From the NCBI RefSeq assembly GCF_007858475.1, contig NZ_VIGX01000002.1, positions 1 through 64,000 on the forward strand: 64,000 nucleotides of DNA, read 5' to 3'. How positions within the stretch are numbered: the first letter of the stretch is position 1; every line of letters starts with the position of its first letter. Below, in pieces: positions 16,970 through 21,714 of this stretch. The notes under the pieces are model-generated. The model did no database searches. It had not been told where the DNA came from and worked only from the letters and a program-made list of their open reading frames with translations. The DNA is from Tsukamurella conjunctivitidis (GTDB lineage Bacteria > Actinomycetota > Actinomycetes > Mycobacteriales > Mycobacteriaceae). Position numbers and translations under genes: made by a program.

Positions 16970-17749
16970 TCACTCCCAGAACGAGCGCTGCGCCGCGACC
17001 GCCCAGGCCGTGACCCGGCGGGTGTCCGCCCGTTCGGGTAGCGGGCTCCCTCGATCGAGCAGCCCACGGATCTGCTGCTCGAGCACCGTGATCGTCGCCG
17101 AGACGGCGTCCCGGGGGACCTCGCCCCGCTTCACGGCGAGCACGTGCTCGCGCTGCTCGGGCGGCATCGGCAGGGTGAGCGTCGCGAAGCGGGCGATCTC
17201 GTACCCCTGGTACGCGAGTCGCAGGGCGTGGCTGCCGTACTTCACATCCCAGCCGTACCGCTCCACCAGTTCGGGTCGATTCGGCACGCCGCTCGCCCGG
17301 CCGAGCATCCGCTCGTGCTGCGCGTGCATGTAGCCGAGGAATCGCTCCACTGCCTGCCGGGACAGGAACGCCGCGCGCAGGTCCCGGAGCGACCGCCCGA
17401 GGTCGGTCACCGTGATCACCGATTCCTCGGGCGCGTAGAGCGGGAGGAGCACCGTCGGGTTGCCCTTGACGGCCAGCCGCAGGTACTTCCGCAGCGAGTA
17501 CATGACCAGGTCCGTATCGCCGGGGCCGCTGCGCACGCCCTCGGGCTGCGTCCGCCAGATGTAGTCCGCGCGCGGCTCCTCGACGCCGAGCAGGAACTCC
17601 GGCGGCTCGAGGTAGACACCGAGCTCGTCGTGATCGTCCGTGCCCGCGATCGCGATGCCGTGCACGCCCGAACCCACGACGGTGCGCAGGATCTCACCCT
17701 GCAGCGCGACGTCGCGGTTCCCGTACTCGACATTCTTCCGATCGGGCAT
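16970..17749 (-). CDS. RlaP-type nucleotidyltransferase of RNA-repair loci
   Basis: The 259-residue protein matches PF10127 (RNA repair pathway DNA-polymerase-beta family, RlaP): GSGVHGIAIAGT followed by DDHDELGV, the metal-binding acidic motif, and LEPPEFLLGVEEP. The C-terminal half is helical. Members are proposed to add nucleotides to damaged RNA ends in repair systems. Divergence from hen1-pnkp only 82 bp away supports that role. ATG 17749 is chosen; upstream extension lacks family similarity. Activity has to be inferred from the family. Confidence 0.8.
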   Translation of the reverse strand: MPDRKNVEYGNRDVALQGEILRTVVGSGVHGIAIAGTDDHDELGVYLEPPEFLLGVEEPRADYIWRTQPEGVRSGPGDTDLVMYSLRKYLRLAVKGNPTVLLPLYAPEESVITVTDLGRSLRDLRAAFLSRQAVERFLGYMHAQHERMLGRASGVPNRPELVERYGWDVKYGSHALRLAYQGYEIARFATLTLPMPPEQREHVLAVKRGEVPRDAVSATITVLEQQIRGLLDRGSPLPERADTRRVTAWAVAAQRSFWE

Positions 17750-17811
17750 GCCGAGCACGGTACGACTCTGCGGAAGTCCGCTCCACTGAATTTCGTTGGG
17801 CTCGCGCTGCG

Positions 17812-17829
17812 CGGTAGTGCAGACTACCG
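17812..17829. promoter_or_regulatory. Palindrome in the rlaP-hen1 divergent promoter
   Basis: CGGTAGT-GCAG-ACTACCG is a perfect 7+7 inverted repeat ending 2 bp before the hen1 GTG. No SD precedes that GTG, so hen1 may be leaderless and the palindrome would then overlap its -10 region. No regulator gene is adjacent. Confidence 0.6.
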
Positions 17830-17831
17830 GG

Positions 17832-19223
17832 GTGTACCTGACCATCTCCACGACGCACGTCCCCGCCACCGACCTGGGCTTCCTCCTGCACAAGCATCCC
17901 GACCGCGTGCAGGAGTTCCGGCAGCCCTTCGGTACGGCGACGGTGTTCTATCCGGAGGCCGGCGAGGCGCGCTGCACCGCCGCGCTCCTGCTCGAGGTGG
18001 ACTCCACGGAGCTGGCGCGCCGCCGCCGCTCCACCCCCGACTTCTCGTTGGGTCAGTACGTGAACGACCGCCCGTACGCGGCCTCGTCGCTCCTCGCCTC
18101 GGCGATGGCCGACGTCTTCCGCAGCGCTCGCGGCGGTCAGGGCGGCAGCCGACAGGCTTTGGCGGACAGCGCGATACCGCTCGAGATCGAGATCCCCGTA
18201 CTGCCCTGCCGCGGCGGCCCCGACCTGGCGCTGCGCGTCTTCCGCCCGCTCGGCTGGGAGGTGCAGGCGGAGCCGATTCCGCTCGACGACGCCTTCCCCG
18301 ACTGGGGCGACTCGCGCTACGTCCGTCTCCGGCTCGCCGGGACGGTGCGGCTGGCGGACGCGATCAACCAGCTCTACGTGCTGCTCCCGGCGCTCGACGA
18401 GTCGAAGCACTACTGGCAGAGCGGCGACGAAGTCGACAAGCTGATGCGCTCGGGCGAGGGCTGGCTCGCCGGGCACCCCGAGCGGGAGCTCGTCACGCGC
18501 CGCTACCTCGGCCGCGGGCCGGGCCTGGCGCGGGAGGCGCTCGACCGGCTCGCGGAGCTCGACGGCACCGTCGGCGAGGACGAGGTGGACACCGGGCCGG
18601 ACGGCCCGCCCACCCCGCTCAATCTGCTCCGTCACGAGGCGGTGCACCGCGTCGTCGTCGAGAGCGGCGCGGCCTCCGTGATCGACCTCGGCTGCGGGCC
18701 GGGCCAGTTCCTGGACCGGCTGCTGAAGACACAGGGTGTCGAGAAGGTCGCCGGCACCGACGTTTCCGTGCGCTCGCTGCAGCACGCGGCCAAGCGCCTG
18801 CACCTCGACGGCATGACCGAGCGGCAGCGCGAGCGCATCGATCTCTTCCAGGCAGCGCTCACCTACGAGGACCCGCGGCTCGCCGGCTTCGACGCCGCGG
18901 TGCTCATGGAGGTGATCGAGCACGTCGAACCATCGCGGCTCGGCGCGCTCGAGCACGTGGTCTTCGGCGCCGCCAGGTCCGGCACCGTGATCGTGACCAC
19001 CCCCAACCGCGAGTACAACGCGCTCTACCCCGACCTCGTGGGGATGCGGCACCCGGACCACCGATTCGAATGGGACCGTGCCGAATTCGCGCGCTGGGCC
19101 GGCGGCGTCGCCGGCCGGTACGGCTACGCGGTGCGGTACGACGGCATCGGCGACGTCGACGCCCACCGCGGCACCCCCACCCAGATGGCGATCTTCACCC
19201 GGAAGGAGTCGACCGATGACTGA
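17832..19223 (+). CDS. hen1: 3'-terminal RNA ribose 2'-O-methyltransferase Hen1
   Basis: The 463-residue protein has the bacterial Hen1 layout. The N-terminal ligase-activating domain (residues ~1-240, opening YLTISTTHVPATDLGFLLHK) stimulates Pnkp. The C-terminal SAM methyltransferase has VIDLGCGPGQ (G287, G289) and the metal-binding EVIEHVEPSRL near residue 357. Hen1 methylates the 2'-OH of the 3' end at a cut before sealing, protecting the repaired RNA from re-cleavage. The GTG 17832 start lacks an SD. The stop lies 8 bp inside the pnkp reading frame. Confidence 0.92.
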   Translation: MYLTISTTHVPATDLGFLLHKHPDRVQEFRQPFGTATVFYPEAGEARCTAALLLEVDSTELARRRRSTPDFSLGQYVNDRPYAASSLLASAMADVFRSARGGQGGSRQALADSAIPLEIEIPVLPCRGGPDLALRVFRPLGWEVQAEPIPLDDAFPDWGDSRYVRLRLAGTVRLADAINQLYVLLPALDESKHYWQSGDEVDKLMRSGEGWLAGHPERELVTRRYLGRGPGLAREALDRLAELDGTVGEDEVDTGPDGPPTPLNLLRHEAVHRVVVESGAASVIDLGCGPGQFLDRLLKTQGVEKVAGTDVSVRSLQHAAKRLHLDGMTERQRERIDLFQAALTYEDPRLAGFDAAVLMEVIEHVEPSRLGALEHVVFGAARSGTVIVTTPNREYNALYPDLVGMRHPDHRFEWDRAEFARWAGGVAGRYGYAVRYDGIGDVDAHRGTPTQMAIFTRKESTDD

Positions 19224-21714
19224 CACCCCGATCGCGGTCCCCGCCGCCGGCCTCGTGCTGCTCGTCGGCGTCTCGGGCAGCGGCAAGTCGACGTTCGCCC
19301 GCACGCACTTCCGTGCCACCGAGATCGTGTCCAGCGATACGTGCCGCGGGCTCGTGGCGGACGACGAGAACGACCAGGCCGCGACGGCCGACGCCTTCGA
19401 CCTGCTGCACCACCTCGTGGGGATCCGCCTGCGTCGCGGCCTGCTCACGGTGGTCGACGCGACCAACGTGCAGCGCCCCGCCCGCGCCTCCCTGCTGCAG
19501 GTGGCACGCGATCACGACGTGCTCACGGATGCGATCGTCTTCGACCTGCCGGACGAGGTCGCGGTCGAACGCAACCGAATCCGGACCGACCGCACCTTCG
19601 GCCCGCAGGTGATCACCCGCCAGGGACGCGAGCTGCGCCGCTCGCTCAAGGGGATCAAGAAGGAGGGCTTCCGCCGGGTCCACGTCCTGCGCGATGTCGC
19701 GGCGGTGGACGCCGCCGCGATCACCCGCGAGCGGTCCTGGAACGACCGCACCGAGCTGACCGGGCCCTTCGACGTGATCGGCGACGTGCACGGCTGCGCC
19801 GCCGAGCTGCGGTCCCTCTTGGGGGAGCTCGGCTGGCAGGTGCGGGACGACGGAGCCGAGCACCCGGAGGGCCGGACCGCCGTCTTCGTCGGTGATCTCG
19901 TCGATCGCGGCCCGGACACGCCGGGGGTGCTGCGCCTCGTCATGGGCATGGTCGCGGCGGGAACGGCGCTGTGCGTCAGTGGCAATCACGAGTCGAAGCT
20001 GGCCCGCGCGCTGCAGGGCCGGAAGGTCACGGTGGCGCACGGGCTCGAGCAGTCCCTCGAGCAGCTCGCCGCCGAGTCCGCGGAGTTCCGGTCGTCGGCG
20101 CTCGCCTTCATGGACGGACTGCTCAGCCACTACGTGCTCGACGGTGGCCGGCTGGTCGTCGCGCACGCCGGTCTCAAGGAGGAGTACCACGGGCGGGCCT
20201 CGCGCCGGGTGCGGGCCTTCGCGCTGTACGGCGACACCACCGGCGAGACGGACGAATTCGGTCTCCCGGTGCGCTACCCCTGGGCCCGCGACTACCGCGG
20301 CGCGGCGGCGGTCGTCTACGGGCACACCCCGGTCGAGGAGCCGCGGTGGGTCAACAACACGCTGTGCATCGACACCGGCGCCGTCTTCGGCGGCGCGCTC
20401 ACCGCACTGCGCTACCCGGAGCGCGAGATCGTCTCCGTACAGGCGGAGTCCCAGTGGTACGAGCCGACCAGGCCGGTCGTGGAAGAGGAGCCGGAGGACG
20501 ACCGCGGCGAGTCGGTGATCCGGATCGACGACGTCGCCGGAACCCGGTGGCTGGCGACCCGCACGGCCGGCCGGGTGAAGATCGAGGAGGAGAACGCCGC
20601 CGCGGCGCTCGAAGTGATGAGCCGGTTCGCGGTGGACCCGCGCTGGCTGATCCACCTGCCCGCCACCATGTCCCCGGCATCGGTGGCGAAGGCCGACGGC
20701 TACCTGGAGCACCCGGAGCGGGCCTTCGAGGACTACGCGGCGTGGGGCGTGCGCCGGGTGGTGTGCGAGGAGAAGCACATGGGATCGAGGGCCATCGCGG
20801 TGATCGCCCGCGACTCCGCCGTCGCCGCCCGCCGCTTCGGGATCAGCGACGGCAGTACGGGCGCCGTGTACACCCGGACCGGGAGGTCGTTCTTCCAGGA
20901 CTCGGAGGCGCTCGTCGACCGCGTCCGCACCGCCGTCGCGCCCCTGTTCGACCGGCTCGACACCGATTGGCTCGCACTCGATTGCGAGCTGCTGCCGTGG
21001 TCCGCGAAGGCGGGGGAGCTGATCCGGTCGCAGTACGCGTCCGTGGGCGCGGCGGCGGGCGCCGCGTTCCCCGCGGCGCTCGCCGGCCTCGACGGCGCAG
21101 CGGCCCGCGGCCTCGACGTCGCGGCACTGCGGGCGCGGACCGAGCGCCGGGCGCGCAGCGCCCAGGACTTCCGCGGCGCGTACGCCGGGTACTGCCGTCC
21201 CACCGACGGCCTGGACGGGGTCACCATCGCGCCGTTCCAGGTGCTGGCAGTGGAGGGGAGAGTGCTCGTCGGCGAGCCGCATGAGTGGCACCTCGCGCAG
21301 TTCGACGCGCTCGACGACCCGTTCCTGACGCGGACGGGGCGGCGGACCGTCGACCTGGGAAGCGAGGCCGACCGCGCCGAGGCGACCCGATGGTGGACCG
21401 AGCTCACGGAATCCGGCGGCGAGGGCATGGTGGTCAAGCCCGCCGAGCCCGGCGGCAGCCGGAAGTCGCAGCCCGGCCTCAAGGTGCGCGGGCGGGACTA
21501 CCTGCGGATCATCTACGGTCCCGACTACCTGGATTCCCTGGATGCACTGCGGGATCGGAACCTGGGCCGCAAGCGGAAGATGGCGATCACGGAGCACGCC
21601 CTGGGCCTGGACGCGCTGACCTCCTTCGTGGAGGGCGAGCCGCTCTGGCGCGTGCACCAGGCGGTCTTCGCGGTGCTCGCCTCGGAATCGGAGCCGGTGG
21701 ACCCACGCCTGTAG
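19216..21714 (+). CDS. pnkp: Polynucleotide kinase-phosphatase/RNA ligase Pnkp
   Basis: The 832-residue protein contains three catalytic modules in order. First is a 5'-OH kinase with P-loop GVSGSGKST (residues 18-26). Second is a binuclear-metal phosphatase with GDVHGC (D190, H192), GDLVDRG and GNHE (256-259). Third is an adenylyltransferase ligase with the KHMGSR motif I (K520 as predicted AMP-linked lysine). With Hen1 it heals and seals RNA cut by ribotoxins. The length fits the characterised Clostridium enzyme. It overlaps hen1 by 8 bp and ends in a convergent region with a long imperfect hairpin. Confidence 0.95.
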   Translation: MTDTPIAVPAAGLVLLVGVSGSGKSTFARTHFRATEIVSSDTCRGLVADDENDQAATADAFDLLHHLVGIRLRRGLLTVVDATNVQRPARASLLQVARDHDVLTDAIVFDLPDEVAVERNRIRTDRTFGPQVITRQGRELRRSLKGIKKEGFRRVHVLRDVAAVDAAAITRERSWNDRTELTGPFDVIGDVHGCAAELRSLLGELGWQVRDDGAEHPEGRTAVFVGDLVDRGPDTPGVLRLVMGMVAAGTALCVSGNHESKLARALQGRKVTVAHGLEQSLEQLAAESAEFRSSALAFMDGLLSHYVLDGGRLVVAHAGLKEEYHGRASRRVRAFALYGDTTGETDEFGLPVRYPWARDYRGAAAVVYGHTPVEEPRWVNNTLCIDTGAVFGGALTALRYPEREIVSVQAESQWYEPTRPVVEEEPEDDRGESVIRIDDVAGTRWLATRTAGRVKIEEENAAAALEVMSRFAVDPRWLIHLPATMSPASVAKADGYLEHPERAFEDYAAWGVRRVVCEEKHMGSRAIAVIARDSAVAARRFGISDGSTGAVYTRTGRSFFQDSEALVDRVRTAVAPLFDRLDTDWLALDCELLPWSAKAGELIRSQYASVGAAAGAAFPAALAGLDGAAARGLDVAALRARTERRARSAQDFRGAYAGYCRPTDGLDGVTIAPFQVLAVEGRVLVGEPHEWHLAQFDALDDPFLTRTGRRTVDLGSEADRAEATRWWTELTESGGEGMVVKPAEPGGSRKSQPGLKVRGRDYLRIIYGPDYLDSLDALRDRNLGRKRKMAITEHALGLDALTSFVEGEPLWRVHQAVFAVLASESEPVDPRL

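Follow-up and report, generated by a model that had tools for sequence, protein, structure and literature searches.

The repair steps carried out by bacterial Pnkp and Hen1 have been established for relatives elsewhere, as an excerpt of the published account sets out (PMC4411300). A third protein, RlaP, is described in excerpts of two further papers as an RNA-ligase-associated nucleotidyltransferase (PMC7824862, PMC6514570). Here we describe a locus of Tsukamurella conjunctivitidis, order Mycobacteriales, in which the genes for all three proteins lie together. It occupies positions 16,970 to 21,714 of the window, by which we mean the whole 64,000-nucleotide stretch analysed (NZ_VIGX01000002.1, positions 1 to 64,000). 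A 2016 study by Burroughs and Aravind is reportedly the key paper linking RlaP to RNA ligases. That association is already in print; what is helpful here is a set of natural losses, which lets the role of RlaP be told apart from that of a ligase in closely related hosts. The three genes are arranged as follows.

16,970-17,749, minus strand: rlaP, PF10127 nucleotidyltransferase of 259 amino acids, with its ATG at 17,749
17,832-19,223, plus strand: hen1, GTG start, predicted 3'-terminal RNA ribose 2'-O-methyltransferase
19,216-21,714, plus strand: pnkp, TIGR04075 at 1286.9 bits against a cut-off of 750
19,216-19,223, plus strand: overlap of hen1 and pnkp, 8 bp

A sequence-only reading of this stretch had placed a PF10127 gene, hen1 and a three-domain pnkp here, the last two overlapping by 8 bp and rlaP divergent from them. 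All of this holds. The three genes score above the profile cut-offs, their reading frames are free of interrupting stops, and rlaP diverges from hen1 across 82 bp, an order common to related species. The set had also been called complete. Three intact genes of RNA-repair type are indeed present, but the implication that RlaP is integral to the set is not supported, as in 38 of 102 order genomes with Hen1 no PF10127 gene was found and two Tsukamurella genomes carry rlaP with no hen1-pnkp.

Natural losses in Tsukamurella

Among 16 Tsukamurella genomes, RlaP is found in 8, a Pnkp-ligase match in 7 and RtcB in 12. A divergent rlaP stands beside hen1-pnkp in 6 of the 16, including the window's, and thus in 6 of the 7 genomes with Pnkp. 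The genomes form a series. All three genes occur with rtcB in five and without it in one, the window's; rlaP and rtcB occur with no hen1-pnkp in two; four have rtcB alone; one genome (G302) has rtcB and a remnant of hen1-pnkp; and three have none of the genes.

The two genomes in which hen1-pnkp is gone, rlaP intact and rtcB present are those of T. spumae (G282) and strain TY48 (G308). At the T. spumae deletion joint, about ten codons of the hen1 start and a few of the pnkp end are recognisable by eye. The intact T. spumae RlaP is 91% identical to the window's and is its closest named relative, followed by that of T. pseudospumae (90%). The window's genome gave no RtcB match. At the syntenic place of rtcB (L248; genome G000, contig C221, about 92,387-92,812) it has about 0.4 kb, against a 1.9-kb stretch bearing rtcB in G207. 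With hen1-pnkp lost in T. spumae and TY48, and rtcB lost in the window's genome, rlaP persists whichever ligase is lost. These relatives, which keep one part only, suggest that RlaP is a separable partner of hen1-pnkp.

In G302, where rlaP is absent, a deletion has left only an out-of-frame remnant of hen1 and pnkp. There (L273, 4,186-6,064) the N-terminal part of Hen1 abuts the ligase part of Pnkp, and the frames differ. A 623-amino-acid open frame over pnkp in this genome was considered as a Hen1-ligase fusion and rejected, because the two parts lie in different frames. In Tsukamurella sp. PLM1 (L165, the same genome as G304), one of the six genomes with the divergent order, hen1 is split between two frames in an assembly that is 83% complete, and we do not interpret the split.

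Co-occurrence and linkage of RlaP, Hen1 and RNA ligases

Co-occurrence was examined in 298 genomes of the order and 241 of the phylum, 8 of them common to both samples, and in 14 control genomes; the tests ignore phylogeny. Within the order, PF10127 is present in 92 genomes and the Hen1 N-terminal family in 102. The two occur together in 64 genomes, against 31.5 expected (Fisher p 2.5e-17). The phylum sample has RlaP in 18, Hen1 in 22 and both in 13; after removal of the 8 shared genomes, both are present in 10 of 233, with 15 RlaP and 19 Hen1 genomes (p 2e-9). Hen1 thus accompanies RlaP in 64 of 92 genomes in the order sample and in 13 of 18 in the phylum sample, so the co-occurrence test that the sequence-only reading had proposed is passed. 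Three controls carry RlaP, and among them Hen1 is found in Deinobacterium chartae only.

Of the 298 order genomes, 210 have RtcB. Where Hen1 is missing, RtcB is found in 27 of 28 genomes with RlaP compared with 90 of 168 without it (p 4e-6). Hen1/Pnkp or RtcB is found in 91 of the 92 RlaP genomes of the order, the sole exception being G163; neither Hen1 nor RtcB is found in 79 of all 298. The corresponding count for the phylum is 17 of 18 with Hen1 or RtcB (exception, G499), and the PF09414 RNA ligase family was not found in G163 or G499. The control genomes with RlaP have Hen1, RtcB and PF09414 (D. chartae), RtcB and PF09414 (Methanocaldococcus jannaschii) or PF09414 only (Bacillus subtilis). 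In one genome of the class (G438, contig C1, 1,557,229-1,559,289), a Hen1 match and an RtcB match on opposite strands are separated by about 0.2 kb; that genome has no RlaP match.

The linkage of RlaP to Hen1 is real. The two lie at most about 6 kb apart in 12 of the 64 order genomes that have both, where random placement would give about 0.13, assuming 6-Mb genomes. The remaining 52 have them at a distance or on separate contigs, some of these being short draft contigs. Four gene orders were found. The divergent order occurs in Tsukamurella, L167, Nocardioides aequoreus (L173) and G027. The second, hen1-pnkp-rlaP on one strand, is seen in Glycomyces (L219-L221), Planosporangium (L195 and L197), Cellulomonas (L218) and G062. 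The third is hen1-pnkp-rlaP-rlaP (L068-L072). The fourth, hen1-rlaP-rlaP-pnkp, is carried by two Deinococcus plasmids, with PF10127 confirmed and, in D. ficus, an extra gene before pnkp.

Both hen1 and pnkp lie within the flank in 12 of 80 named loci (80 of 186 relatives), the flank being short for some. On an RlaP tree of 109 rows, for which 7 of 116 matched rows were left out as fragments and a long-branch warning applies, 9 changes are needed to account for the label "linked to hen1-pnkp", 8 of them forced by well-supported branches. This count overstates separate events, because five tandem-pair loci are counted twice and losses are included. The differing gene orders are a firmer sign than the tree count that the two genes became linked, or linked again, on more than one occasion.

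Some of these loci have features of their own. In G027 (L063, 5,408-6,301) the divergent rlaP is broken by an in-frame stop, and the hen1-pnkp frames are open. Two different RlaP genes stand in tandem within hen1-pnkp operons of actinobacteria (L068, 8,107-9,866; L069-L072) and of Deinococcus plasmids (L244, 4,368-6,100; L245, 3,334-5,039). In the actinobacterial rows both partners have D-x-D, and one has GA instead of GS. The same tandem pairs occur without Hen1, but with RtcB, in genomes of one genus (L085-L087, L104-L110 and L112), the second copy in L112 being broken by a stop. The D. ficus operon encodes a 237-amino-acid protein between the rlaP pair and pnkp (L244, 6,097-6,810), with no Pfam hit at E up to 0.01. 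The Deinococcus gobiensis operon is followed, after about 0.5 kb, by an annotated AbiEi/AbiEii type toxin-antitoxin pair (L245, 8,116-9,490).

Proposed role of RlaP and alternatives

We favour a Pnkp-Hen1 pair with an accessory, optional RlaP that would add nucleotides to RNA 3'-OH ends before sealing, and give this a probability of roughly 0.55. A transesterifying ribotoxin would leave 2',3'-cyclic phosphate and 5'-OH ends, and Pnkp would process both. By analogy with the described pairs, Hen1 would switch on the Pnkp ligase and 2'-O-methylate the 3' end, and Pnkp would seal the break. For RlaP we infer, in part from published prediction, a template-free addition of one or a few nucleotides to the 3'-OH end. 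This would allow repair, ahead of sealing, of ends from which bases are missing, for instance after wobble excision of the RloC type. rlaP would share the 82-bp control region with hen1-pnkp. RlaP is optional and exchangeable in that it has been acquired, lost and linked anew independently of the ligase, and in that it persists in genomes where RtcB is the only one found of three ligase families searched.

Several points weigh against this reading. No PF10127 gene was found in the 38 Hen1 genomes of the order noted above, and 28 of its 92 RlaP genomes are without Hen1. RtcB joins a 3'-phosphate to a 5'-OH, so it would gain nothing from a nucleotide added to a 3'-OH end. Filling in and then sealing is therefore most doubtful in the Tsukamurella genomes that have rlaP and only rtcB.

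These same genomes fit an alternative that is possible, though clearly less probable, in which RlaP is a general 3'-end nucleotidyltransferase acting apart from sealing. It might repair or tag tRNA acceptor ends after nuclease attack, for example, and its linkage to ligases would stem from a shared need under attack. The intact rlaP at the T. spumae scar and in TY48 supports this, as do the tandem RlaP pairs without Hen1 and the near-constant RtcB of RlaP genomes lacking Hen1, an enzyme that would make no use of a filled 3'-OH. Another nucleotidyltransferase, MenT3, works on tRNA acceptor ends, according to an excerpt of its description (PMC11541572). The repeated tight operons with hen1-pnkp point instead to a step in the same pathway.

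A shade more tentative is the idea that RlaP, instead of filling gaps for one ligase, acts on RNA ends as an independent nucleotidyltransferase, or is a template-free polymerase of the HalB kind, kept with whichever ligase is present. It would then be the constant element of RNA-damage tolerance after the loss of hen1-pnkp in T. spumae and of rtcB in the window's species. It is unlikely that RlaP is a HalB-like enzyme whose product, an oligonucleotide made without a template and either free or bound to protein, serves as a control signal for the repair pair or a defence response. No channel-like HalA-type partner is present among the rlaP neighbours, judged by their families and not by a HalA profile. 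A role for RlaP as a toxin or as a regulator, for example an AMPylating nucleotidyltransferase, with Hen1-Pnkp as its counterpart, is very improbable: rlaP is intact in two genomes without hen1-pnkp, which is unexpected for an unopposed toxin. The neighbours scanned include no MenT or MNT-HEPN partner family. Chance neighbourhood, or a gathering of both in defence islands, is just as improbable and is disfavoured, for although RlaP and Hen1 are not seen close together in most genomes with both, some having them on separate draft contigs, the linked cases far exceed expectation, the genes overlap or abut in operons and the same intergenic blocks are kept across 7 Tsukamurella.

Features of the proteins and the control region

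RlaP scores 98.8 bits against PF10127 (cut-off 23). Its two nearest relatives start at the same residue as the ATG at 17,749; a longer open reading frame reaching 17,893 was rejected as the gene because it is too long and these relatives share the ATG.

RlaP residues: motif GS at 26-27 and D39-x-D41; further conserved acidic residues E42, D78 and D80

D39, D41, E42 and D78 are kept in 54 of 54 aligned rows, and D80 in 52, the remaining 2 carrying E. G26 and S27 are each kept in 53. The structure model has a predicted local distance difference test score (pLDDT) of 94 and a predicted template modelling score (pTM) of 0.90. No PDB chain credibly matches RlaP by sequence, PADLOC gave no hit for it, and the literature searched turned up no tested activity, including nucleotide addition to RNA ends. 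By its family, motif and ligase association, the protein belongs with the RlaP already known.

The domains of Hen1 and Pnkp are as follows.

About 17,832-18,554, plus strand: Hen1 N-terminal ligase-activating region, PF12623
About 18,609-19,202, plus strand: Hen1 methyltransferase domain, aligned to solved bacterial Hen1 domains
About 19,231-19,725, plus strand: Pnkp 5' kinase, PF13671, table match to 4gp6
About 19,735-20,469, plus strand: Pnkp metallophosphoesterase, PF00149
About 20,602-21,696, plus strand: Pnkp ATP-dependent RNA ligase, PF16542

Hen1 scores 643 bits against TIGR04074 (cut-off 340) and 366.5 bits against PF12623. It can be aligned to solved N-terminal (4dqz) and methyltransferase (3jwi, 3jwh) domains, and its MEVIEHVE...RHPDHRFEW segment (ExxEH and a downstream His) is conserved in the solved proteins. 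Pnkp has the order kinase, metallophosphoesterase, PNKP-ligase. Its phosphatase and ligase domains were aligned residue by residue to solved structures (4j6o, 4drf), and the comparison of the kinase with 4gp6 comes from the match table only. The ligase Lys motif EEKHMGSR is likewise conserved. The kept motif residues of both proteins are presumably catalytic. With both proteins above curated cut-offs, Hen1 and Pnkp are, by sequence, the bacterial Pnkp-Hen1 RNA-repair pair, and their 8-bp gene overlap may couple their translation.

17,750-17,831, no strand: divergent control region of 82 bp between rlaP and hen1
17,820-17,825: -10-like box CAGACT, 6 nt before the hen1 GTG

A TGAAT(T/A)TCG block is kept in 7 of 7 aligned Tsukamurella intergenic regions. 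The -10-like box reads CAGA(C/A)T in 5 of the 7, CACAAT in G300 and CAGCAT in T. spumae, the species that has lost hen1. The region probably holds two divergent promoters, and the hen1 start may be leaderless. A palindrome just ahead of hen1 (about 17,811-17,829) was considered as a possible operator or RNA element and discarded, as by eye it is not conserved in the 6 other Tsukamurella regions.

rlaP is flanked by an AHSA1-family gene on one side and hen1 on the other. The five neighbours scanned are this AHSA1-family gene, a ferredoxin-type reductase, a PF10118 gene, a CrtI-family desaturase and a heavy-metal P-type ATPase. No ribotoxin-like gene is among these five, the only genes looked at for toxins.

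Phage relatives and comparison with known systems

The window's RlaP matches 493 of 50,697 phage records (tblastn, E up to 1e-5), and Mycobacterium phages account for 326 of these; with the phages and the 92 of 298 order genomes, RlaP is common. Many matches come from genomes of about 151-157 kb, which we take to be cluster C1, a tRNA-rich group. The tRNAs of that group have been proposed to escape host tRNases (PMC10264068). Some mycobacteriophage RlaP genes carry an insert of about 1 kb, as in phage Gizmo (L256, 473-2,344); inteins in a cluster C1 nucleotidyltransferase are already described, as an excerpt of that work states (PMC5050341). In Microbacterium phage A3Wally, the gene next to RlaP is annotated as an "RNA ligase"; its matches are to 2H phosphoesterase / 2'-5' RNA ligase families and fall short of the cut-offs, so it was not used as ligase evidence.

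A Krischvirus ECD7 gene of the T4 NrdC.11 type matches PF10127 at 53.6 bits. T4 has its own Pnkp and Rnl1 tRNA repair, as an excerpt states (PMC4411300). The NrdC.11 type resembles RlaP in its family and in the company of tRNA repair; it differs in its lytic phage setting. Hailong HalB differs, with 14% identity to RlaP, and no channel-like gene was seen to adjoin rlaP. Bacterial Pnkp-Hen1 repair (TIGR04074/TIGR04075) has the same domain order and two-gene operon as the predicted pair here, which has rlaP added on the opposite strand. The Tsukamurella RlaP is close to the RlaPs of actinobacteria and mycobacteriophages. It shares PF10127 membership, the motif and the RNA ligase association with the published RlaP, and differs in being divergent from hen1-pnkp and kept when hen1-pnkp is lost.
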